A stretch of 64,000 bases of DNA from contig JAFEBL010000002.1 in NCBI GenBank assembly GCA_018242665.1, positions 1 to 64,000 of the forward strand, written 5' to 3'. The notes under the pieces are model-generated. The model saw only the letters and a list, made by a program, of their open reading frames with translations, was not told the origin of the DNA and ran no database searches. This DNA is from Nitrospira sp. (GTDB lineage: Bacteria > Nitrospirota > Nitrospiria > Nitrospirales > Nitrospiraceae). Below, one piece after another: positions 10,821-64,000 of this stretch; position 1 is the first letter of the stretch; each line of letters opens with the position of its first letter. Position numbers and translations under genes: made by a program.

Positions 10821-12010
10821 GCCGCGATCGATTCGCAAAGGGCCGGTGCACACGCTCGCCAGATGTCGGCACGCGAGTGCTCGACTGTGTCATTCCCGCG
10901 ACCGTCGTCAAAATACGCTCCCCATCGATCCATCCGACTCCTCCACAGGGTCCAATCGGTCGCGTTGCGACCCTGGTCACCGCACATCAGCGCGATACTC
11001 TCCATGATCGGCCAGCGTTGAGGCGGCGCTTGCGTGGCATGCTGATAGACCCAATGTCCGTCGCCATAGGGACCAGTTTCATGCACCCGGGCACGTGAAA
11101 AATACCAACCCAGGGCTCGAGTGCCCACCAGCGTGCCAAGATGAAGCGGACCCGTATCAGCTCCGATGACCCAGTGGCAGTTGTGAAGCACACGCATCAA
11201 CTGGGAGATGTTCGTGCGACCGGTTGCATCCCATACGTGACCATGGAGTAACGGGGGAAGTGCATCGAAAATCGCCTGGGCAGTTTCACGTTCGGTGCCG
11301 CTCCCGATCAGCACGACCTGTCCATCTTGGGTCTGTGTCAAGAATTCGAGAATCCATCGGCTCCACACGGCCGGACTGACACAACGATCCGCCTCCCCTG
11401 CTCCGGTGGCCAATGCTACCCAGCGTCCCTGACGCTCACCGATCTCGGCGAGGTCTCCCGGCAGCTCGACAGCCGGGGGCACACACGACGGCGCGTGTCT
11501 GCGCGGCAGCACGCCGCACATGCCGCACCAGGCGTCAGCGAGATGCACTCGATTGGCACCCCGCTCCTTGGCGACGTGCCGGAGATGCTCGGCCCACGGC
11601 CGCATGCGTGTCTCGATGCGAGCTTGTTCCGGTTCCCGGGAGGCATGGCGTGAGAACAACTGCGTCATCAGATGGCTACGTTCATGCTGATTCAGCGGAT
11701 ACACCCGTTCGTACGTCGTGTCGCCAAGAGACATGAGATGGTGCTGCATGGCCTGCATGGTGGCGGTCGGATTCTCATGCCAACGAGTGGCCCAGCCCCG
11801 CCACTGTGCCCCGTCCCAGGGAATCACACGGCCGATATGACGCATGTGACTCAGGAGTCCCGTCAACGGTGCCGCACAGAGGATGTCCAGGGTTCGTTCC
11901 GGATAGGCTTCCCGCAACGCCTCGATGGCGGGAAGCGTTTGAACCAGATCACCCAGTCGAGCCAATTGAATCACCAGACTTCGCTGTTCCGGTGAGGGCT
12001 CATGCGGCAT
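10817..12010 (-). CDS. Glycosyltransferase family 9 protein
   Basis: A 397-residue GT9/heptosyltransferase-like protein. It opens with the family pattern SLVIQLARLGDLVQTLPAIEALREAYPERTLDILCA, and the nucleotide-sugar binding domain contains WVIGADTGPLHLGTLVGTRALGWYFSRARVHETGPYG. I place the start at 12010 (MPHEPSPEQ), overlapping the end of the upstream giant gene by 11 bases; a longer frame upstream lies inside that gene. It has an Arg/Trp-rich C-terminal tail. It is the second of two GT9 proteins in the operon, suggesting two heptose-like residues are added. Confidence 0.85.
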   Translation of the reverse strand: MPHEPSPEQRSLVIQLARLGDLVQTLPAIEALREAYPERTLDILCAAPLTGLLSHMRHIGRVIPWDGAQWRGWATRWHENPTATMQAMQHHLMSLGDTTYERVYPLNQHERSHLMTQLFSRHASREPEQARIETRMRPWAEHLRHVAKERGANRVHLADAWCGMCGVLPRRHAPSCVPPAVELPGDLAEIGERQGRWVALATGAGEADRCVSPAVWSRWILEFLTQTQDGQVVLIGSGTERETAQAIFDALPPLLHGHVWDATGRTNISQLMRVLHNCHWVIGADTGPLHLGTLVGTRALGWYFSRARVHETGPYGDGHWVYQHATQAPPQRWPIMESIALMCGDQGRNATDWTLWRSRMDRWGAYFDDGRGNDTVEHSRADIWRACAPALCESIAA

Positions 12011-27623: not shown

Positions 27624-27656
27624 AGCGCTGTGATCCCGGCTGCACATGCCGTCCAG

Positions 27657-27684
27657 TAAAGGACCTACCGGCATCAACCGATAT
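27657..27684 (+). promoter_or_regulatory. Possible sigma-28 promoter of the HD-GYP/hybrid kinase operon
   Basis: On the plus strand: TAAAGGAC, 12-base spacer, ACCGATAT. The TAAAG of the -35 and the CCGATA core of the -10 match FliA promoters; the spacer is one base longer than the enteric 11, the same spacing as the flgM element in this window. The predicted transcript would start near 27691, about 65 bases before the ATG at 27757. Confidence 0.5.
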
Positions 27685-27756
27685 GGATCGTACGCAACGT
27701 CACGCACCTCTTTCGACTCGGCGGCGGCTCCGGTACGGATTCGGTTCGACTCGCAT

Positions 27757-29019
27757 ATGGACTCGACGAAACGCATTCCCATCGATCAATTGACCGTCGG
27801 CATGTTTATCACCGGCCTGGATCAACCCTGGTATCGGACGCCGTTTCTGCTCCACAAATGGCTGGTGTCCAATCCCGATGATATCGTCCAGCTCAAACGC
27901 CACGGTATTCAAGTCGTGACCATCGATACGAAGCGTGGGGTGGATGTCGGGGCCACCCCGACGCCACCCCCGGCACCTGAGTCCCAGCCCATCCAGGCCG
28001 AGTCCGCTTCCGTCCCGGCAGCGGCTGCCGATCCCGTCCCTGCCGAAGCGCCGTCCCCCGCGGCGGCCGCTGCCAGCGTGTATCAGCAGGCCATGGACGC
28101 AGTGGAACGGGTCTTTGTCGATATTGAATCCGGGCAGCCACCAAAAATCGCGGCACTGAAACCGGTCGTGCGCGATCTGCTGAAGCAGATCACCGAACAG
28201 CCGGAAGCGATGATGATTCAATTCTGTCTGGATAAGATGCGCCGCTTTGATGGAACCCTCGCCAATCACGGCATGGATGTCTGCGTGCTGACGCTGATTC
28301 TGGCCGTGGAAAACGGCTGCACCGAACCGGAGATGGAAGCGCTCGGCTTGGGCGCGCTGCTCCATGATATCGGGTTCGTTCGCCTGCCGCGGAATCTCTA
28401 TCGAAAACCCTCGCCGCTGACGGAACCGGAACAAGTGCTGATGCGGCAACATCCCCAGTTGGCGGCCACCGTGTTGTCGCAAGCCGAACGAGTACCGGAA
28501 ACCGTGACGAGGATCATTGCAGAGCATCACGAATTTCAGGACGGAACCGGATTTCCCAAAGTGGCAAAGGCCGGCACCGTCTCTCCCCTCACCCAATTGA
28601 TGGCGTTGGCGGACACCTATGATGATCTCGTGACGACCAGATACGGTCGCGCGCCGCTGCTGCCCCATGATGCCATCCGCCAGCTCTTTGTTCTGGGGGC
28701 TAAGGGGCGATACGACAAGACCATCGTGGAGGTCGCCATCAAAGTGTTGGGCGTGTATCCACTGGGGAGTCTCATCAAGCTCAACACCAACGAATGCGCC
28801 GTGGTGATCGGCCTGAACCATGAAGACCGGTTGCGGCCGAAGATCCGCATCATCAAGGGTGAGGACGGAGAGCGTCGGCAGGATCCGGTGGATATCGACC
28901 TTCAGAATCAGCCGGCCGATCAGCCGACCCGCTCAATCCTTCGCGCGTTGGATCCCGACGCCGAACATCTCGACCTGCCGCAATACCTCGACCTTGTAGC
29001 CGGAGGAACCTCCCGATGA
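27757..29019 (+). CDS. HD-GYP cyclic-di-GMP phosphodiesterase with DUF3391 N-domain
   Basis: A 420-residue protein. N-terminal DUF3391 domain ([32 protein letters not shown]), then a Pro/Ala-rich linker (~68-105), then a complete HD-GYP domain: HGMDVC, LLHDIG (His203-Asp204), HH at 257-258 and the signature loop DGTGFP at 262-267. Phe266 stands where most enzymes have the Tyr of GYP; metal ligands look intact. HD-GYP enzymes hydrolyse c-di-GMP to pGpG or GMP. Start at 27757 (MDSTKRIP) is favoured because the DUF3391 core begins there and a sigma-28 element lies upstream; a longer frame starts at 27646. Overlaps the next gene by ATGA. Confidence 0.85.
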
Positions 29020-31856
29020 GCCGTGGGTCACACTCGTCGTTTCCTGAGGCGAACCACCCTGACGGACCTGACCTTCCGATCGAGGCGCTCTATCTCCTAT
29101 GGGACGCCGTGCCCCTGGGCGTGTGTTTGCTGACGGCCGACTCCCGCGTCGTGTTTGCAAACCGTGCTGCCGCTCGCCTGTTTCACCGCACACCGACAGA
29201 CTGTGTGCAGAAGACGTTGACCGATCTCCTCGGGCAAACGGTTGAGTTGAAGGCGTCGTTGCGGTCGTCGGGCGTCTGGAAGGTGCCGGAAGGAACAGGC
29301 GTCGACTTGCCGGGCGCGGCAGAAACCATCGACGCCGACGAGCCAGCCTTCGCGCTGATCGAATGGGAACAATTGCGACTCTCCGGTATCCAGGGCGTTG
29401 CCGCGCTGCTGACGCTGTGTGATGTCACTCGCGAATGCGAGTTGGAAACCGATCGTGATCGGCTGGCCACCGTCGCGGAGGAAAGCCCCTACCCCATTGT
29501 TGAAATCGACCGGAATGGCAACATTCTCTACGTGAACCCCGCCATGGTCGAAGTCCTCTGTCGATTCGGGTACGACCTTGGTGGCAAACCGGAGATTCTT
29601 CCGGACAATCTTCCCGCCCTGGTTGCCACCTGTTTGCTTGAGGGACGCACCATTCGCTCGCAGGAGGTCGTCCGCGGGGAAGCCTGTTACAGTTGGACGT
29701 TGTGCCCGGTTCCCAGCAACCAACTCGTGCGGGCCTATGGCATCGACCTCTCCGAAGTGCACGCGACCCATCGAGCCTTGAACGCCACGGCCGACCATCT
29801 ACGGGAGAGCAATCGCCAGTTGGACCAAGCGCTACAACAGGCGCAGGCTGCGGCACAGGCGAAGTCGGCGTTTTTGGCGATGATCACGCATGAGTTGCGC
29901 ACGCCGATGAACGGGGTCATCGGCATGGCCAGCCTTCTGCTCGACACCCCACTGACGGACGAGCAGCGATCGTTCACCCAGACGATCCAGCAATGCGGTG
30001 AGGCGCAACTGTCGCTCATCAATGACGTGTTGGAATGCAGCAAGATTGAAGCCGGCAAACTGGAACTCGAAAGTCTCGATTTTTCTCTGCGCACCACGGT
30101 GGAAGACGTCTTGTCACAATTCGCCGAGCGGGCCCAGCGCAAAGGACTGGAGATCACAGGCCTGGTGCATGCTTCCGTGCCGAATGCGCTCCGGGGAGAT
30201 CCGGGCCGGTTGCGGCAGGTGTTGACCAATTTCGTGGGCAACGCCGTGAAGTTCACCGAACAGGGTGAAGTCACGCTGCAGGCTTTCCTGGAACAAGAAA
30301 GTCCGGCCGGCGTGACGATTAAGTTCGAGGTCACCGATTCCGGCATCGGCATCAGTGAAGAAGTGCAAGGCAAACTTTTTCAGGCCTTCGCGCAGGCCGA
30401 TAGCTCCACCACGCGCAAGTACGGTGGAACAGGACTCGGTCTCGCGATTTCCAAGCAGTTGGTCGAATTGATGGGTGGCCAGGTTGGTGTGCGCAGTCGT
30501 CCGGGCGAGGGCGCGACCTTCTGGTGTACAGCCGTCTTTCAGAAACAGCCAGATTGTACCCCGGCCATTGTGCCGTCTGCTGATCTCACCGGTCGACGCG
30601 TCCTGATCGTTGATGACAATGAATCCAATCGAACGATCTTGCATCATCTCGTGTCTGGATGGGGCATGCAGGATAGTCAGGCTCGCAATGCGGCAGAGGC
30701 GATGGAGATGTTGACACGGGCGGCTGCGGAAGGAAAGCCATACGAGGCAGCAGTCCTGGACATGCTCATGCCAGGGAAAGACGGACTTCAACTTGCCCAA
30801 GATATGAAGGCGCATCCGCACGGCGCTGGTGTGCGTTTGGTCGTTCTCACCTCATTGATTCAACCGGGGCATGCGGAGCGGGCTCGCCGCGCCGGATTTG
30901 CTGCCTATCTGACGAAGCCGGTTCGCCATGATCAATTACAGGGCTGTCTTCGGGTCGTTTTCGGATTGCAACAGGGGCCAGGAGCCACCGGTAGCGGCCA
31001 GGGCGTGAGTCACACAGCCGCGCCGCCTCTGATCACCAGGCATACATTGGCAGAGCAATCCACGCGACCAAGAATTCTGGTGGCCGAAGACAACATGGTC
31101 AACCAGAAGCTGGCTGTCCGCATGCTGGATCGACTTGGCTATCAACCTGACGTCGTGTCCAATGGCCAGGAAGCAGTGACGGCGTTCGAACGGGGATCCT
31201 ATGCTGCGATCGTGATGGATTGTCAGATGCCCGTCGTGGACGGATACGAAGCCACCAGGCAGATCCGGCAGATGGAACAGCGACCGGATGTATCCCGGAA
31301 GCAAGCGCATATTCCCATCATTGCGTTGACCGCCAATGCTATGCCTGGCGACCGTGAGCGGTGCAAGGTCTCCGGCATGGACGACTATTTGACCAAACCG
31401 GTAAAAACCGACGATCTGGGGCTCATCCTGCAACGGTGGGCTCCCTTGGCAGCGGCTGCAGATGCTCCAGCACCTGTGCCGCGCCGGGAGACGAGCAAGA
31501 CCGATGCGCGCGTGTTTGACGCGTCCGCGATGTTAGCCAACATCGGTGGTGATACCGAACTATTCGACCAACTGATTAAGCTGTTTTTGGACCGGCATGA
31601 TCTATTGATGAAGGACATTGAAACGGCGATCGGCCAAACCGATGCGTCCGCGCTGGAACGGGCCGCTCACAGTCTCAAAGGAACCGCCGCCAATCTCTGC
31701 GCCCCAGAGGTGGTCTTGCTGGCAGGCCAGTTGGAAGCGACTGGCCGGCTGGGGACGCTGACCGAAGCCCCGTCCCTCCTCGTGCAGTTGGACCGCACGG
31801 TTCAGGAACTCGTGTCCGTCTTGTCACGCCAAGCGAGTCCTCCCCCCGCATCCTGA
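29016..31856 (+). CDS. BarA-type hybrid sensor histidine kinase (PAS-PAS-HisKA-HATPase-REC-REC-Hpt)
   Basis: A 946-residue soluble sensor with a full phosphorelay. Two PAS-like domains (~20-140 and ~145-265) are followed by a short coiled coil. The histidine kinase H-box is [21 protein letters not shown] (His292), with ATPase N-box GNAVKF and G-box [18 protein letters not shown]. First receiver: phospho-Asp582 ([12 protein letters not shown]). Second receiver: Asp735 ([12 protein letters not shown]). C-terminal Hpt has His885 ([12 protein letters not shown]). No transmembrane segment is visible, so it senses a cytoplasmic cue. It is translationally coupled to the HD-GYP enzyme, suggesting shared control. 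Relay output is unknown; its Hpt could phosphorylate a free receiver, including the one fused to FliH (speculation). Confidence 0.93.
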
Positions 31857-41109: not shown

Positions 41110-41979
41110 CTAGGCGGCGATGGTTGATGCGGAGTCGTGAACTATTCCCGCGCCAGCGATCGCGTCGACCCTGCCACCCGTGGCCTGCGCGCGTTCGAGT
41201 GCCCGCACGGCTGCGTCGATCAACGCCTGAGCGTCGGCGCCATCGCTGCCGGACAGGCTGATACCGATCCGGCAACTGAGGAAGAGTTCATGTTCATCGA
41301 GTGTGATCGGATGCGCAATCGTCTGTTGCATCTTCTTCGCAAGCGCCAGGACTTCCTCCGCCTGGGTCACCTGCTCGAGCAAGACGGCAAATCGTGTTTC
41401 TGTCAACCGGGCCACCACATCGGTGGTTCTCAGCGCGCTTTTCACGCGCGCGGCCTGTACCCGATACATGAGGTTTCGATTGAGCATCGCGTAGGCATTG
41501 GTTTCCGGTGTGAAGTGCGCAAGCTCGATCACCAGAATGGCTGCCTGACGTCCCCCCTGCTCCGCTCTGGCCAACGCCTGCTTCAGGAGAGAGAGAAATA
41601 GGCGATGCATCGGCAGCCCCGTCACCGCATCATACGTATGCGCGGGGCTCGCGTACGACAAGGACATCGACGCATCACGACCGGAATCAGCCGATGAGCG
41701 GCGCGCGGGCCAGGTGGCGACCCCGAAAATCACCAGCGACAGGACCATGCCCGCCATGACCATCATGGGATAGGCGGTCAGCGCCGACACCGTAAGCAAT
41801 CCGACCGAGGCGGTCCAATACAACCCGCCCGCCATGAACATGACATAGGCCATCACGCCAAGTCTGGCGGCATCAGTGGAGTGCGACCCGCGAGGGTCTT
41901 CGGCCTCGTCGGCCCTGTGGGCGGACGCTGATCCGTGACGATGGCCGCCGTCCGGTGAAAGAGGTGCGAGCAGGCTCAT
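41110..41979 (-). CDS. Membrane protein with a degenerate GGDEF domain
   Basis: A 289-residue protein downstream of fliA. After a polar start (~1-40) there are two hydrophobic segments (~42-65 and ~67-90; AYVMFMAGGLYWTASVGLLTV and MMVMAGMVLSLVIFGVATW). The C-terminal ~165 residues have the GGDEF fold: DAVTGLPMHRLFLSLLKQAL (the diguanylate-cyclase N-terminal D..TGL motif). The active-site GG(D/E)EF loop is replaced by LTETRF near residue 195 and no RxxD inhibitory site is evident. It is predicted to be catalytically dead and perhaps a c-di-GMP- or protein-binding regulator. Start at 41979 is a guess between two nearby starts. Confidence 0.78.
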   Translation of the reverse strand: MSLLAPLSPDGGHRHGSASAHRADEAEDPRGSHSTDAARLGVMAYVMFMAGGLYWTASVGLLTVSALTAYPMMVMAGMVLSLVIFGVATWPARRSSADSGRDASMSLSYASPAHTYDAVTGLPMHRLFLSLLKQALARAEQGGRQAAILVIELAHFTPETNAYAMLNRNLMYRVQAARVKSALRTTDVVARLTETRFAVLLEQVTQAEEVLALAKKMQQTIAHPITLDEHELFLSCRIGISLSGSDGADAQALIDAAVRALERAQATGGRVDAIAGAGIVHDSASTIAA

Positions 41980-42138
41980 AGGCGCAAACACATCGCAGTG
42001 GTGAATGACAGACCGCAGGGTCTAGACCGTATCGGAGGAGTAGTGGGGAAACTGTAGGACGAATGGTCGGCACGTGGTGCGCCGGACCGAGCCGGCAAGA
42101 ACGGAGATCAACGGAGGCGAAGACCTAGGGGGCTCCTC

Positions 42139-50591: not shown

Positions 50592-50957
50592 TCAGCCCAA
50601 TTGTTGAATGCGTTGATTCGGGCTCACGACATCCGTCAGACGAATGCCGAACTTTTCGTTGACGACCACCACTTCACCGCGCGCCACGAGCTTGTTGTTG
50701 ACGAGCACTTCCATCGGTTCACCGGCGAGTTTGCTCAGCTCGATGACCGAGCCCTGCCCGAGCTGGAGCAATTCGCGGATCAGCATCCTGGTCGAGCCGA
50801 TCTGCACGGTGACCTGGAGCGGGATGTCCAGGACGAATTCAATATTCTTGTTGGCCGGTACCGCGCCGTGATTGTCCACCGGAGGGAAGGCCGTCGGTTG
50901 AGGGCTGGCTTCGCCGTTGGAGGAATCCGTCTGTGCCGTGGTGTCACCGTTGCCCAT
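50592..50957 (-). CDS. fliN: Flagellar motor switch protein FliN
   Basis: FliN forms the base of the C ring and binds export cargo via FliH. The 121-residue protein has a polar N-terminal part and a complete SpoA domain: IEFVLDIPLQVTVQIGSTRMLIRELLQLGQGSVIELSKLAGEPMEVLVNNKLVARGEVVVVNEKFGIRLTDVVSPNQRI. AAAGGAG precedes the ATG. FliY-type CheC insert is absent. It lies between fliM and fliO. Confidence 0.97.
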   Translation of the reverse strand: MGNGDTTAQTDSSNGEASPQPTAFPPVDNHGAVPANKNIEFVLDIPLQVTVQIGSTRMLIRELLQLGQGSVIELSKLAGEPMEVLVNNKLVARGEVVVVNEKFGIRLTDVVSPNQRIQQLG

Positions 50958-56234: not shown

Positions 56235-56915
56235 CTATGGGGTCGTCAACAGCTGTTCAGTCAGGCGGGCGGCGCGCTCAGGCTTCACTTCGGCGAGAAT
56301 GGCACCGGCGGATTTTCCTTTCAACAGTCGCAAGACCTCCAGCGCTTTGCGCTCGGGCATACGTTCGAGACGGGCTGCGGCCTCTTCAGGGGGCATCGTT
56401 TCATAGATCTTCGCGAGTTGCACCTGGTTCAAATTCGTGGCCGGTGCCGTCTTCGCCGACGGCTTGGCCTTGTCCGGTTCATTGCCTGCTTTGGCCTGCG
56501 CGGCCTGCCGCCGTTTTTTCTCGGCTTCAACCGCCTGCTCGTGGCGGCTGACGATTTGTTCCAACTCGGCCTTGAGTTCCAACACATGCGTCTCTGATCC
56601 GCGAAGGGTCGCTTCGCGCTTGTCCAACATTCGCTTCCGCTGTTCCAGCAACTCAAACATTTCCCGAGGGGCGCTCAGCGCCGGACCTTGGACCTCTTTC
56701 TTCGCGTCGGTCTTTCCGGAATCACTGTTTACTGCGTCCGATTTCGAGTCCTCGGCTTTTGGTTTATCCGTGTGTCCTGCCGCGGTCTGTGCCGCAGGGG
56801 CCGGTTTCGCCTCCTCTGCCGGCGCCGAGTTCAACGTCGCCGCCACCAACAGCAGCGTGGCCGTTGAGATGCGAACGGACACCACAATTGCTCTTGTTCC
56901 ATCGATCGCCCTCAT
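56235..56915 (-). CDS. MotE-like protein with signal segment, coiled coil and MgtE-N/FliG-like C-domain
   Basis: A 226-residue protein starting MRAIDGTRAIVVSVRISTATLLLVAATLNSAPA, an N-terminal hydrophobic segment (signal anchor or signal peptide). A Lys/Ala-rich linker follows, then a long coiled coil (EMFELLEQRKRMLDKREATLRGSETHVLELKAELEQIVSRHEQ). The C-terminal helical domain LAKIYETMPPEEAAARLERMPERKALEVLRLLKGKSAGAILAEVKPERAARLTEQLL resembles the MgtE-N/MotE fold that is also related to FliG. In Gram-negative bacteria MotE-type proteins act as periplasmic chaperones for motor parts. The start overlaps the fliJ stop by ATGA. Exact role uncertain. Confidence 0.75.
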   Translation of the reverse strand: MRAIDGTRAIVVSVRISTATLLLVAATLNSAPAEEAKPAPAAQTAAGHTDKPKAEDSKSDAVNSDSGKTDAKKEVQGPALSAPREMFELLEQRKRMLDKREATLRGSETHVLELKAELEQIVSRHEQAVEAEKKRRQAAQAKAGNEPDKAKPSAKTAPATNLNQVQLAKIYETMPPEEAAARLERMPERKALEVLRLLKGKSAGAILAEVKPERAARLTEQLLTTP

Positions 56916-57352
56916 GCCCGCTCCCCCTTTTGCAGTGGGCTTCGCCGCCACGCGCGTTCATCCAGCAACTGCTGATCCTGCCGTTCGCGGCGGCGTCGCA
57001 CCTCCTCGGCCGCACGCGCGTCGAGCAAGTCCAACTTTTTGCGGTACTGCATGGCCTCAAGGAGCTCGCCCCGTTTTTGCTCCATGTGCGTTTGTTGGGT
57101 GGCGAGGGTTTGTTCCAAACGTTTTTGCGCCGCAAGCGCCTGCTCCATGGCGTCGAGATGTCCGGACACCTGGTCGACGGTACCGCCTTCCGTCACACGC
57201 GCAAGGTAGCGATCGGCGTCTGATCTGGCGAGGGTTTCCAGGTGAGTCATTCGATCCACCGTCTGCTGGAGCGCGCGGCCGAATTCCGCCAACTCCAACT
57301 TCGCAACCTCTTCCAACTGTATGGCATAGAGACGAAGCACCGTCAGGTTCAT
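56912..57352 (-). CDS. fliJ: Flagellar export chaperone/stalk FliJ
   Basis: FliJ is an antiparallel coiled coil that links the FliI hexamer to FlhA, similar to the gamma stalk of ATP synthase. The 146-residue protein is almost all charged heptad helices: LRLYAIQLEEVAKLELAEFGRALQQTVDRMTHLETL, MEQALAAQKRLEQTLATQQTHMEQKRGELLEAMQYRKKLDLLDARAAEEVRRRRERQDQQLLDERAWRR, typical for FliJ. The start overlaps the fliI stop (ATGA). Downstream of fliI as usual. Confidence 0.9.
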   Translation of the reverse strand: MNLTVLRLYAIQLEEVAKLELAEFGRALQQTVDRMTHLETLARSDADRYLARVTEGGTVDQVSGHLDAMEQALAAQKRLEQTLATQQTHMEQKRGELLEAMQYRKKLDLLDARAAEEVRRRRERQDQQLLDERAWRRSPLQKGERA

Positions 57353-58662
57353 TGAATGGCCCCTGCCAGGCTCAGCAATTCATCGATCGATTGCGACAGA
57401 CCGAATGCCTGCTTGGTTTCTTGCCGCAGGAACGCCGTGATCCCGTCATGCGCCGACACCGCCTTGTCGAGTTCTTTACTGGTCCCGGGTTTGTACGCGC
57501 CCAACGTGATCAAGTCTTCCGACCGCCGATACAACGCCGTCCGTTCAAGGACCAGTCTGGCCGCGGCATAGTGAGCCGGCGTGACGATGTCACGCATCAC
57601 CCGGCTGGTACTCTGTAAAATGTCGATCGCCGGGAAATGGTTGCGGGCCGCCAATTCTCGCGACAGCACGATATGCCCATCGAGAATCGAGCGGACGGCA
57701 TCGGCCACCGGATCGTTGAGATCATCGCCATCAACGAGTACCGTGTAGAGGCCCGTGATGCTGCCCCCGCTTTGCGCCGGCCCCACGCGTTCCAGCAATT
57801 TCGGCAGCACGGCGAAGACGGAAGGCGTGTACCCTTTGGTCGTGGGAGGCTCTCCAATAGCCAAGCCCACTTCTCGCTGGCTATAGGCCAATCGCGAGAG
57901 CGAGTCCATCATCAGGAGCACATGTTTGCCGCAGTCACGAAAATATTCAGCGATGGCGGTGGCGACCAGGGCCCCTCGAATACGCACCAGCGGCGGTTGA
58001 TCCGACGTGGCCACGACGACAATGGAACGCGCCCGGGCTTCCGGAGTCAGATCGCGCTCGAGGAATTCCTTCACTTCACGTCCGCGTTCGCCGATCAGCG
58101 CGATGACCCGCACATCGGCCTGCGTGTAGCGGCTGATCATGCCCAACAACACGCTTTTCCCGACTCCCGAGCCGGCAAACACCCCGATCTTTTGTCCCTG
58201 CCCGCAGGTCAACAGCGCATTGATGGCCCTGATGCCCAGATCCACCGGTTGGGTGATGCGGGCGCGGTGCAACGGATTCAACGGCACGGCGTATAAGGGA
58301 ACCCGCACATCACTCCGGACCGGCGGTTGGCCGTCCAGCGGGTGCCCGAGGCCGTCGAAGATCCGCCCTAACATGTGCGGACCGACCGGGACAGAGGCAA
58401 CATGGCCCTTCATGACGACACGGCTGCCGGGACCGATGCCCTGCATTTCTCCAAGCGGCATCAACAATACACGGTCTTCGCGAAAGCCCACGACCTCGGC
58501 CATGACGGCTCCGTGGCCGCCTTCTCTGGTGATCTCGCAGATTTCTCCCACAGAGGTAAAGGGCCCCGAGGCTTCTATGACAATGCCGACCGCCTGCGCC
58601 ACCCGGCCCGTCACCGACAGCGGTTCGATATGTTCCAATCGTTCGCTAAGCTTCACCGGCAT
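57349..58662 (-). CDS. fliI: Flagellar export ATPase FliI
   Basis: FliI is the F1-like ATPase that unfolds cargo at the export gate. The 437-residue protein has the Walker A GSGVGKS at 164-170 (GVFAGSGVGKSVLLGMI), IALIGERGREVKEFLERDL, the Walker B stretch HVLLMMDSLSRLAYSQREVGLAIGEPPTTKGYTPSVFAVLPKLLERVG and the C-terminal helical cap. Length is typical. It overlaps the FliH-fusion gene upstream by 17 bases and fliJ downstream by 4, so the three are tightly coupled. Confidence 0.97.
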   Translation of the reverse strand: MPVKLSERLEHIEPLSVTGRVAQAVGIVIEASGPFTSVGEICEITREGGHGAVMAEVVGFREDRVLLMPLGEMQGIGPGSRVVMKGHVASVPVGPHMLGRIFDGLGHPLDGQPPVRSDVRVPLYAVPLNPLHRARITQPVDLGIRAINALLTCGQGQKIGVFAGSGVGKSVLLGMISRYTQADVRVIALIGERGREVKEFLERDLTPEARARSIVVVATSDQPPLVRIRGALVATAIAEYFRDCGKHVLLMMDSLSRLAYSQREVGLAIGEPPTTKGYTPSVFAVLPKLLERVGPAQSGGSITGLYTVLVDGDDLNDPVADAVRSILDGHIVLSRELAARNHFPAIDILQSTSRVMRDIVTPAHYAAARLVLERTALYRRSEDLITLGAYKPGTSKELDKAVSAHDGITAFLRQETKQAFGLSQSIDELLSLAGAIQ

Positions 58663-59695
58663 CCCGTCCCCTTAAGGCCTCCCCCAAGCGCAACAGTTGC
58701 GTATCCAATGTCGCATCAATCAACAGGCTTTGAGCCTGAACCAGGCATCCGCCTGGACTGATGGAAGGATCCGTCTCGAATTTCAAGGTCAGCAAGCCGT
58801 GAGGCGTTTGGCTCAAGCCGGCGCGGGCCGACTCCAATGCCGGCACGTCCGACGGATGGATGCGAACACGGACCAGGCCGCTTTCGTGGAGATGCCCCAA
58901 TGCCCCCTTCACCTGGGTCACAATGAGGTCACGCTTCTCCGTGACGATGTCACGGAGTACCTTTTGGGCAATCATGAAGGACAGAGAGGCGACCTCTTCC
59001 TCGACCGTCTCATGCAGACACTGCCACACCTCTTCAAACCTGGCGGCCAGTGAGGCCACCAGCGCCTGCTCTCGCTGCCGTGCCGCGGCCACACGCTCGG
59101 TAGCCCGCTTGTCCCCTTCCGCCAATCCTCGTTCATATTCGCTATGGTCATCGACTCCAAACGGGCGATTCCCGCGACTGAAATCCGCCAGCGGAATCGT
59201 GCGCAATTGGATGTTGCCGGAACGAATCAACGTGCGGGTGAGAACCGTGTTCTCCTGCCTGAGGCGGTAGAGCTCGAGCAGCCGCGAGACTGTCACCCTG
59301 ACCAGTTCAGCTTGGAACGGTTTCGTCAGAAAGTCTGCGGCTCCCGACTTCATCGCTCGCACGGCCAGCTCGATATTGCCGTGGCCTGTCATCACGATCC
59401 CCATGAGGCGGTTATCGACATCCAGTGCTTGCTGCAAGAAGGCGATGCCGTCGGCGCCGCCCAGTTGGACATCGACGATCACCACCGCCACGGTGCGGGT
59501 GCGGACGTGGATCATCGCCTCTTCGACGGAGCCGGCTGTGAGGATCGGATGGCCGGTGATCTGTAGCATCTCCGCGAGCAACAGGCAGATCGACGGTTCA
59601 TCGTCAATGATCAGCACCGCTCGAGGCGACAGTTCTTTGTCCGAATCCACCGGGGAGGCCACCGGCGTCCCCGAGCCTACGGCCGCGCCGCCCAT
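58646..59695 (-). CDS. Receiver domain fused to FliH (export ATPase regulator)
   Basis: A 349-residue fusion. Residues ~26-130 are a complete CheY-type receiver: acidic pair Asp31-Asp32 (VLIIDDEPS), phospho-acceptor Asp75 (VVIVDVQLGGADG), Thr103 (GIVMTGHG) and Lys125 (FLTKPF), all expected residues present. Residues ~185-345 are FliH: a charged coiled coil (SEYERGLAEGDKRATERVAAARQREQ), VEEEVASLSFMIAQKVLRDIV, ESGLVRVRIHPSDVPAL, and the family end DPSISPGGCLVQAQSLLIDATLDTQLLRLGEAL. The position between fliG and fliI is exactly that of fliH; no other fliH is seen. FliH ties FliI to FliN and the C ring and inhibits its ATPase. Fused here, phosphorylation could regulate export (inference). Confidence 0.93.
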   Translation of the reverse strand: MGGAAVGSGTPVASPVDSDKELSPRAVLIIDDEPSICLLLAEMLQITGHPILTAGSVEEAMIHVRTRTVAVVIVDVQLGGADGIAFLQQALDVDNRLMGIVMTGHGNIELAVRAMKSGAADFLTKPFQAELVRVTVSRLLELYRLRQENTVLTRTLIRSGNIQLRTIPLADFSRGNRPFGVDDHSEYERGLAEGDKRATERVAAARQREQALVASLAARFEEVWQCLHETVEEEVASLSFMIAQKVLRDIVTEKRDLIVTQVKGALGHLHESGLVRVRIHPSDVPALESARAGLSQTPHGLLTLKFETDPSISPGGCLVQAQSLLIDATLDTQLLRLGEALRGRDAGEA

Positions 59696-60691
59696 TTAGA
59701 GCATCTCCTCGCTTCCTCCGCCGCCGATCACGATGCGGCCCTCTTCCTCGAGCTTGCGGCAGACCTTGAGAATGTTCTGTTGAGACTTTTCGACGTCGGA
59801 GACCTTGACCGGCCCGCGCGTTTCCATGTCTTCCTTGAGCATTTCCGCCGCTCGGCTTGACATATTTTTGAGGAACTTCTCCTTGATCTCCGGCGTCGCC
59901 CCGCGCAAGGCGATCGGCAGATCTTCTTTGCTGATTTCTTTCATCAACTCCTGCATGGCCCGTGAATCCAACCCCACCAGATCGTCGAAGACAAACATCA
60001 ACGCCCGGATACTGTCCGCCAAGGCCTGATCCTTCTCGGTAATTTTCGCCATGATGGCGCCTTCGGTGTTCTTGTCCACGCGCGTGAGAATATCGGCCAT
60101 CAACTCCGCGCCGCCCACCGACATGCTGGACATGCCCATCGACGCCGACAGAATTTCCTGCAGGCTGTCGCTGAGTTCGGCCAGCACCTCCGGCTGGACT
60201 TCCTGCATCGTCGCGAGGCGCAGGGAGACATCCGCGTGCAGATGTGTCGGCAACATGGACAGCACGGCGCTGGCTTGTTCCGCCTCCATTTGCGCGAGAC
60301 AGACGGCGATCGTCTGCGGGTGCTCGATTTTCAGGATCTGGGCCACCGTGCGAGAGTCGACCCATTTCAGGGCATCGATGCCGGGATAGGTCTTCGTGTT
60401 CAGCGATTCGATCATGCGGGCGGCCTTCTCGGGGCCCAGCGCCTTTTTCAGAATCGCTTCCATGAATTCCCGGCTTTCAAATTGGACTTCGCCGCTGGCG
60501 CTGGCCTGTTCGAATTCCGCGATGACGCTGTCTTCTTCCTGCTTGGTGATATTCGCCGTCTCCTTCATGAACAGCCCGAGTTTGCGAATATCCTTCGGGT
60601 CGAGCGTTTTCATGACTTGGGCAGCAGCCTCTTCTCCGATTGCGCGAAGGAGAATGGCGGCTTTTTGGGCGCCCGAGAGGTCTTTGTTCAT
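59696..60691 (-). CDS. fliG: Flagellar motor switch protein FliG
   Basis: FliG is the switch rotor that meets the stators. The 331-residue protein has FliG N and middle domains (LSGAQKAAILLRAIGEEAAAQVMKTLDPKDIRKLGLFMKE; DALKWVDSRTVAQILKIEHPQTIAVCLAQMEAEQASAVLSMLP) and a C-terminal torque helix with FVFDDLVGLDSRAMQELMKEISKEDLPIALRGATPEIKEKFLKNMSSRAAEMLKEDMETRGPVKVSDVEKSQQNILKVCRKLEEEG, the charged torque residues included. Immediately downstream is the FliH fusion (adjacent stop and start). Confidence 0.97.
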   Translation of the reverse strand: MNKDLSGAQKAAILLRAIGEEAAAQVMKTLDPKDIRKLGLFMKETANITKQEEDSVIAEFEQASASGEVQFESREFMEAILKKALGPEKAARMIESLNTKTYPGIDALKWVDSRTVAQILKIEHPQTIAVCLAQMEAEQASAVLSMLPTHLHADVSLRLATMQEVQPEVLAELSDSLQEILSASMGMSSMSVGGAELMADILTRVDKNTEGAIMAKITEKDQALADSIRALMFVFDDLVGLDSRAMQELMKEISKEDLPIALRGATPEIKEKFLKNMSSRAAEMLKEDMETRGPVKVSDVEKSQQNILKVCRKLEEEGRIVIGGGGSEEML

Positions 60692-60702
60692 GGACTGGTC
60701 CG

Positions 60703-62265
60703 TTACGCGTTACTCTTGAGCCACTGTTTGACGACCACGGCGGTGTTGGCGGGATTGTTCTTGGCCATGTCCAGAATTTGAGACGGTTGTTTTCCGCTGA
60801 TGGCCGCTTCGACCTGACCGACCGAGGCCGGAAGCGCCGGCGTGTCACTCTCGGCGGGAGCCGGGGCCGAGGCCACCAACATCGCCATCAACGGCCGAAC
60901 GACCATGAAGAGAATCAAGAAGAACAGGACGCCGCCCACGGCATAGCGGATATACGGCATCCAGGCTTTCGTCGAATCCGCCACCGCTTCCACACCTGCT
61001 CCGCTCGGCTCCTCGACACCGAGACCAAACTGCACGTTCACGACTTCGACCTGATCCTGGCGCTCCGTGGAATACCCCATGGCCTTCTTGACGATCTCTT
61101 CGATCCGCTTCATTTCCTCTTCCGAGCGCGGCACATACTTCTTCGGCTGCTGTTCCGCGCCCGCCTCCCCGGCCTTCCCGCCGCCTTCATAGAGTCCGTC
61201 TACCAAGACGGCGACCGACAGCTTCTTGATCGTGCCGGTGGGTTCCACGATGCGGGAGACCGTGCGGCTGATTTCGTAGTTCACAGTCTCGTTCTTTGTT
61301 TGATTGCTGTTGGAGCTGGTTTGGCCGGCTTCCGCCTCCGTGCCCCCTGGCACGTTCGATTCCACACCTGGTACGCCGCCGGACGCGCCGTTCACGCCGT
61401 TGGATTTTTCCTGGCCTCGTTGTTCGCTGCGGACCACCTGCCCGTTCGGATCGTAGCGTTCTTCGGTGGTCTCGACTTTACGGAAATCGAGGACGCTCGA
61501 GACGCGGACCACGGCTTTGTTGACGCCGACGATCCGCTCCAACATGGTCTGGATACGGGTTTCGATGTCCTTTTCCAGCGTGCGTTGAAATTCCATTTGA
61601 GTGCCGGACAGACCGGCGGATTCGTCAGTCGAGCTGTTCGACAACAGATTGCCGTGTCCATCCACCACCGTGACATCACGGGCCTGCAGCCCTTCGACGC
61701 TGCTGGACACCAGATGGACGATGCCCTGGATCTGGGCTTTCGAAAGCGACTGGTTGGCGCGCAATGACACGACGACGGAGGCCCGTGCCCGATCCTGCTC
61801 TGTGGCGAAAAGCCGGCGTTCCGGAATGGCCAGATGCACCCGAGCCCGTTCGACCTCAGGCATTTGCGTGATCGTCCTGGCCAATTCCCCCTGCAAGGCC
61901 CGTCGATAATTTAGTTTCTGCACGAAATCCGACATGCCCATGGTGGTGCGATCGAAAATCTCATAGCCGACTCCGCCGCCATGCGGGAGGCCCTGTCCGG
62001 CCATTTCGAGCCTCAGGTCGTGTACTTGCGCATTGGGCACCAGGATGGTGGTCCCGCCGTTGGTGGTCTCATAGGGCACCTTCGCGTCTTTCAGCTTATC
62101 GATAATGCCTGAGGCATCATCGACCGCCAAATTGGCAAACAGCACCTGCATGTCCGGCTGCTGGGTCCACAACGTCACCGCCACTAGTCCGGCGATGGAG
62201 CCGGCGAGGGCGAGCAGGATGATGAGGCGCTGATTGATCGTGAAGTGGGCGAATTTTGAGAACAT
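60703..62265 (-). CDS. fliF: Flagellar MS-ring protein FliF
   Basis: FliF forms the inner-membrane MS ring. The 520-residue protein has an N-terminal membrane segment (RLIILLALAGSIAGLVAVTLW), periplasmic ring-building domains (QVLFANLAVDDASGIIDKLKDAKVPYETTNGGTTILVPNAQVHDLRLEMAGQGLPHGGGVGYEIFD, KLNYRRALQGELARTITQMPEVERARVHLAIPERRLF), a second segment near 450 and a C-terminal FliG-binding tail ending KNNPANTAVVVKQWLKSNA. Length is typical. AAAGGAT precedes the ATG. Confidence 0.96.
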   Translation of the reverse strand: MFSKFAHFTINQRLIILLALAGSIAGLVAVTLWTQQPDMQVLFANLAVDDASGIIDKLKDAKVPYETTNGGTTILVPNAQVHDLRLEMAGQGLPHGGGVGYEIFDRTTMGMSDFVQKLNYRRALQGELARTITQMPEVERARVHLAIPERRLFATEQDRARASVVVSLRANQSLSKAQIQGIVHLVSSSVEGLQARDVTVVDGHGNLLSNSSTDESAGLSGTQMEFQRTLEKDIETRIQTMLERIVGVNKAVVRVSSVLDFRKVETTEERYDPNGQVVRSEQRGQEKSNGVNGASGGVPGVESNVPGGTEAEAGQTSSNSNQTKNETVNYEISRTVSRIVEPTGTIKKLSVAVLVDGLYEGGGKAGEAGAEQQPKKYVPRSEEEMKRIEEIVKKAMGYSTERQDQVEVVNVQFGLGVEEPSGAGVEAVADSTKAWMPYIRYAVGGVLFFLILFMVVRPLMAMLVASAPAPAESDTPALPASVGQVEAAISGKQPSQILDMAKNNPANTAVVVKQWLKSNA

Positions 62266-63765: not shown

Positions 63766-64000
63766 TTAGGACTTTTCCGTCTCGACCTGGTCTCCTCTGT
63801 CCCGATATTCCCGCAATTTATTTCGTAACGTGCGGATACTGATGCCCAATTCTTTCGCCGCGTGTGTGCGGTTGTCTTTTACCCGCGCCAGGGTCTTGAA
63901 GATCAGATCCCGCTCCATCTCCCAGAGTGAGCCGTGCGCCGAGGGCGCGACCAGGGATTCGATCGTGTCCACTTCCCGCACGGGAACCATCCCGTCGCCC
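63766..64000 (-). CDS. C-terminal end of a sigma-54-dependent (NtrC/FlrC-like) response regulator, cut by the window edge
   Basis: The last ~78 residues of a longer protein; the frame continues off the right edge. Residues SLWEMERDLIFKTLARVKDNRTHAAKELGISIRTLRNKLREY form a Fis-type helix-turn-helix, the DNA-binding domain found at the end of NtrC/AtoC/FlrC enhancer-binding proteins. Upstream in the flagellar locus, and with four sigma-54-like promoters nearby, it is best read as a FlrC/FlgR-type master activator; AAA+ and receiver domains would be outside the window. Ends TAA at 63766. Confidence 0.85.
   Translation of the reverse strand, partial: GDGMVPVREVDTIESLVAPSAHGSLWEMERDLIFKTLARVKDNRTHAAKELGISIRTLRNKLREYRDRGDQVETEKS

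Follow-up and report, generated by a model that had tools for sequence, protein, structure and literature searches.

In Salmonella, a FliH dimer serves as the peripheral stalk that binds the flagellar export ATPase FliI, with its extreme N-terminus binding FliN and FlhA, and FliH suppresses FliI ATPase activity (PMC9114704). The FlrBC, FleSR and FlgSR two-component systems of polar flagellates need the MS ring, the rotor and the export core; by what means FlrB and FleS detect these structures is still an open question (PMC7064773). Here we describe a gene from Nitrospira sp. that may bear on both systems. It encodes a FliH fused to a receiver domain (REC-FliH) and lies in the 64,000 nucleotides that begin contig JAFEBL010000002.1 (GenBank assembly GCA_018242665.1; hereafter the window).

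The REC-FliH frame is uninterrupted over 349 codons from an ATG start. The gene and its parts are arranged as follows (window coordinates):

58646..59695, minus strand: REC-FliH fusion gene, 349 amino acids (open frame and Pfam domains; conserved family-wide)
59300..59617, minus strand: receiver domain, residues 27-132 (Pfam Response_reg; best structural and sequence matches to the NtrX/NtrC1/DctD receivers)
59222..59311, minus strand: alpha5 and NtrC-type signalling/linker helix, residues 129-158 (AlphaFold2 helix; match to DctD, 1qkk)
59180..59236, minus strand: retained FliH N-terminal motif TLIRSG...PLADF, residues 154-172 (alignment of fused with lone FliH)
58649..59140, minus strand: FliH stalk helix and C-terminal FliI-binding domain, residues 186-349 (Pfam FliH; 5b0o match; model)

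Both halves score well above their Pfam cut-offs: Response_reg at residues 27-132 (75.6 bits against 30.2) and FliH (PF02108) at residues 211-336 (67.7 bits against 24.1). The receiver has the complete active-site set of Asp31, Asp32, Asp75 (the putative phospho-acceptor), Thr103 and Lys125. An earlier note, made from the DNA letters, had described one unbroken frame with a complete receiver and a complete FliH and had numbered these residues identically; its coordinates also hold, with the strand now given as minus (stops are met when the plus strand of 58646-59695 is read straight).

Salmonella FliH (PDB 5b0o) matches REC-FliH with an E-value of 8.5e-5, a GxxxG-type stalk start is present and an ERGLAEG stretch is conserved. 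The TLIRSG...PLADF motif aligns with the KVIKS-like motif at which ordinary lone FliH starts, implying that the whole of FliH was kept and that the receiver and linker were added in front of it. Between receiver and FliH runs a helix (LLELYRLRQENTVL) similar to the NtrC-type linker. The AAA+ sigma-54 interaction and DNA-binding domains of the NtrC family are absent by Pfam, and FliH stands in their place. An AlphaFold2 model (predicted local distance difference test score, pLDDT, 79; predicted template modelling score, pTM, 0.41) places the receiver at residues 26-124 and the helix at 129-158, followed by a flexible stretch (159-185), the stalk (186-253) and the C-terminal domain. No second FliH was found in the whole 4.06-Mb genome (99.9% complete), leaving REC-FliH as the sole copy.

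Same-genus genomes in our sample have a REC-FliH match in all cases but one, and the frame is almost always exactly 349 amino acids long. Twenty-seven genus members align in frame (26 at 349 amino acids, one at 347), with Asp31, Asp32, Asp75, Thr103 and Lys125 invariant in all 27 and with mean pairwise identities of 0.79 for the receiver and 0.81 for the FliH part. The median ratio of nonsynonymous to synonymous substitution rates (dN/dS) is 0.087 for both the receiver and the linker helix and 0.095 for the FliH part, as against 0.396 for the first 24 residues; selection on the receiver is as strong as that on FliH. Because its active site is conserved and its dN/dS is low, the receiver must be translated and under selection, and these two results, together with the in-frame alignment, rule out a frameshift or assembly artefact. 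The 59 fusions compared across the wider family all keep Asp75 and Lys125; conservation is at least 90% for Asp31 and for Thr103, and R158, G160 and F172 of the FliH N-terminal motif are almost invariant. Asp32 varies across the family, being G, H or A in some lineages.

We found that the receiver has a specific relative within the genome. By sequence, DctD, NtrX and NtrC1 supply the closest solved receiver structures, the best PDB match being the DctD receiver with its linker (1qkk), which runs to residue 156. A Foldseek search with the predicted model returned the same NtrX/NtrC1/DctD receivers, and matches to CheY are far weaker. By its sequence the receiver is thus of the NtrC/DctD type with linker helix and is not kin to CheY, which replaces the 'CheY-like' label of the earlier note. 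The best match within the genome, at 107.6 bits against 69.8 for the next, is C2:69834-70223 (C2 coordinates are those of the window's contig), the receiver of a regulator in the flagellar cluster:

C2:68820-70304, outside the window: P0002, second sigma-54 regulator, ~10 kb upstream of REC-fliH and closest relative of the FliH receiver

A receiver tree of 79 rows groups the fusion receivers in one clade (support 100/98), which joins the Nitrospiraceae orthologues of P0002 in a larger clade (99/98). When long branches are left out, support for the joint clade is 100/99, and the clade appears in 200/200 bootstrap trees. The fusion receivers may be nested within the P0002 orthologues or sister to them, the approximately unbiased (AU) test leaving both arrangements possible (p 0.24 and 0.15). 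From these alignments and trees, and from the distribution given next, we conclude that a complete FliH gained at its front a copy of the receiver, linker helix included, of the flagellar cluster's sigma-54 regulator, in a bacterium ancestral to most Nitrospiraceae.

The distribution of the fusion fits this history. We searched genome samples of four phyla with the PF02108 profile and found FliH in 163 of 296 Nitrospirota genomes (the window's family included), 163 of 249 from Pseudomonadota, 42 of 119 from Acidobacteriota and 7 of 95 from Methylomirabilota. The spread of the architecture, which the earlier note had raised, could thereby be assessed: REC-FliH was read directly in 60 genomes, named records place the family in Nitrospira or Nitrospiraceae and, among the matches listed, the fusion is confined to Nitrospiraceae and lone FliH is the rule elsewhere in the order, class and phylum. 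Most FliH frames in the sampled groups are too short for a receiver. None was present in the 45 long or longish frames from Pseudomonadota, Acidobacteriota and Methylomirabilota that were read singly among these matches, nor in the long Nitrospirota cases G270 and G087; a 384-amino-acid frame at a contig start in G415 was left out of the reading. Within Nitrospiraceae, four genomes of three genera (G117, G251, G187 and G035) encode a lone FliH of ~203-206 amino acids. The apparent 424-434-amino-acid FliHs of G187 and G251 proved to be lone FliH with an out-of-frame read-through of fliG. In a concatenated tree of six neighbouring proteins the lone-FliH genera fall outside all fusion genera (88/92), making a single gain within Nitrospiraceae the simplest history; a tree of P0002 only leaves that question undecided. 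Separately, one 84%-complete assembly (G018) holds two REC-fliH copies, on contigs C47 and C33, that are 94% and 80% identical to the window's; it is perhaps a mixed metagenome-assembled genome.

To place REC-FliH among possible partners, we considered the genes around it:

59696..60691, minus strand: fliG, rotor protein, immediately upstream of REC-fliH (Pfam FliG N, M and C domains)
57349..58662, minus strand: fliI, export ATPase, overlapping the end of REC-fliH (Pfam and NCBIfam)
56912..57352, minus strand: fliJ (Pfam FliJ)
60703..62265, minus strand: fliF, MS ring (named by position and sequence; order conserved in 10 further genomes)
50592..50957, minus strand: fliN, C-ring protein, docking partner of FliH in other bacteria (Pfam FliMN_C)
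63766..64000, minus strand: tail of P0003, sigma-54 response regulator, whole at C2:63766-65184
C2:65181-66857, just past the window: P0004, PAS kinase, upstream of REC-fliH
C2:66464-68650, outside the window: tetratricopeptide repeat (TPR) gene, upstream of REC-fliH

The gene thus sits at the fliH position between fliG and fliI, as the earlier note had it, its ATG directly following the fliG stop and its last codons overlapping the fliI start. The upstream order fliI, REC-fliH, fliG, fliF, fliE, flgC, flgB, P0003, P0004, TPR gene, P0002 is kept in 10/10 further genomes, fusion-bearing or not; only in the single genome from outside Nitrospiraceae did the TPR gene go undetected. The window also encodes FlhA, FlhB, FliP, an FlhF-type GTPase, an FlhG-type ATPase and a sigma-70-family factor of the FliA kind.

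P0004 has PAS, HisKA and HATPase domains and looks soluble, with no evident membrane segment, a layout reported for FleS and FlrB (PMC7064773). It is the only kinase conserved in the cluster. As it lies between the sigma-54 regulators P0003 and P0002 in the same conserved cluster, we consider it the better candidate donor for the FliH receiver. The hybrid kinase/Hpt at 29016 that the earlier note had put forward is real, but it lies 27 kb away beside an HD-domain gene: at 27646-31856 on the plus strand, opposite to the flagellar genes, a DUF3391-HD protein precedes a PAS/HisKA/HATPase kinase that also carries two receivers and an Hpt domain.

Several other genes of this region were recorded. 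Immediately downstream of the sigma-factor gene, where the flagellar cluster ends, lies a gene for a GGDEF protein (41110-41991, minus strand), and an MgtE_N-like protein with weak similarity to the FliG middle domain follows fliJ (56235-56951, minus strand). Between P0002 and the next regulator are two small open reading frames, PilZ-like by eye (L040:10813-11178 and 11226-11567, plus strand; C2:70813-71178 and 71226-71567), which raise the possibility of cyclic di-GMP input in the neighbourhood of the flagellar regulators. Beyond them (L040:11564-15254; C2:71564-75254) stand a further sigma-54 regulator, which best matches the GlrR model, and a HAMP kinase, with a small gene between.

We tentatively favor a reading of REC-FliH, one that falls a little short of an even chance, as a response regulator with the FliH stalk as its output, tying a flagellar two-component system to the export ATPase. 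The receiver's descent from a flagellar two-component regulator makes it plausible that such a system feeds into the export ATPase complex. P0004, or another kinase of equal specificity, would phosphorylate Asp75, and phosphorylation would alter receiver pairing and the continuing helix, by analogy with NtrC/DctD-type receivers. The linker helix is predicted to end exactly at the FliH anchor motif ahead of the stalk, and a change there may shift how the FliH2-FliI complex docks at FlhA and the C ring. With it export would change, and so stay in step with the transcriptional programme under the same kinase. Gating of export directly by Asp75 phosphorylation, as the earlier note proposed, is one form this could take, and docking or sensing roles fit the sequence nearly as well.

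The kinship of the receiver with the cluster regulator suggests that one sensor kinase could address both the flagellar genes and the export machine. The fuller version, in which a single kinase runs sigma-54 transcription and the export-ATPase stalk through sister receivers and a shared phosphoryl flow coordinates expression and export in either direction, is possible but somewhat doubtful. Three observations weigh against a kinase-driven stalk. The flexible, poorly predicted residues 159-185 (AlphaFold2, pTM 0.41) part the linker helix from the stalk, so mechanical coupling may be loose. The usual kinase-contact positions agree only partly, with a Glu at DD+11 common to REC-FliH, P0002 and P0003 and Leu/Met versus Thr at DD+12. 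Finally, no kinase lies directly beside P0002.

As the main alternative, information could flow in reverse: the FliH receiver would dock or drain the cluster kinase at the export apparatus, and the kinase would thereby sense basal-body assembly, with sigma-54 transcription following and FliH acting as a phosphate sink or tether. This account fits both the receiver's ancestry in a flagellar-cluster regulator and the conservation of just one kinase in the cluster. Kinase binding by the FliH receiver is, however, conjectural, and the same kinase and regulators are kept in lone-FliH relatives, implying that the fusion is dispensable for their working; we regard reverse flow as unlikely, if worth keeping in view.

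Less probable again is a receiver that works constitutively as a dimerisation or docking module, contacting FlhA, the C ring or partner regulators, in which phosphorylation would be vestigial or play no role. In favor of this, FliH works as a dimer (PMC9114704), NtrC-type receivers are known to dimerise, and Asp32 gives way to G, H or A in some lineages, but the strict conservation of Asp75 and Lys125, the at least 90% conservation of Asp31 and Thr103 across 59 sequences and a receiver dN/dS equal to that of the FliH part speak against it. Phosphorylation by chemotaxis kinases, with the receiver then binding FliM or FliN in the manner of CheY, would suit the C-ring location that FliH has in other bacteria (PMC9114704), but is very improbable for an NtrC/DctD-type receiver with a linker helix that groups with a sigma-54 regulator and matches CheY far more weakly. 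A frameshift, chimera or neutral fusion, an idea with almost nothing left to it, is refuted by 60 genomes in one clade, purifying selection and conserved neighbours.

FliH and NtrC-type receivers are both known already, and their combination is new as far as we have searched. The receiver-FliH fusion is undescribed in the literature searched, a scope outside which subscription papers and domain-architecture databases fell, and the databases may list the combination uncommented; the term 'response regulator' does not occur in a survey of FliH (PMC2674601). Of the three findings that the earlier note had said would count against its proposal, none turned up: there is no frameshift and no second fliH, and no earlier description was found in the literature searched. 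If our reading is correct, REC-FliH would add to the response regulators an output domain that we have not found described, and type III export might here be under phosphorylation control, in an ecologically important nitrifier lineage. The covalent link between receiver and export-ATPase stalk makes kinase sensing of export-apparatus assembly testable with single-residue Asp75 alleles.

Compared with known systems, REC-FliH shares with FliH (PF02108; Salmonella 5b0o) the stalk helix, the C-terminal FliI-binding domain, the N-terminal motif and the position between fliG and fliI as the only genome copy, but where ordinary FliH begins at the KVIKS-like motif it has ~150 residues of receiver and signalling helix before it. 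With the receivers and linkers of DctD, NtrC1 and NtrX (1qkk, 1zy2, 4d6y) it shares the fold, the active-site set and an LRxEN-type linker helix; their output is an AAA+ sigma-54 ATPase with a DNA-binding domain, whereas that of REC-FliH is FliH. CheY is likewise a receiver acting near the flagellar C ring, but it is a free single domain that controls rotation and is no kin of the REC-FliH receiver. The Nitrospira cluster resembles the FlrBC, FleSR and FlgSR systems in its soluble PAS kinase and its sigma-54 regulators, and the organism has the FlhF-type GTPase and FlhG-type ATPase of the polar-flagellate set. Those systems act on transcription, whereas Nitrospira has a third receiver, kin to that of one of its regulators, on the stalk of the export ATPase.
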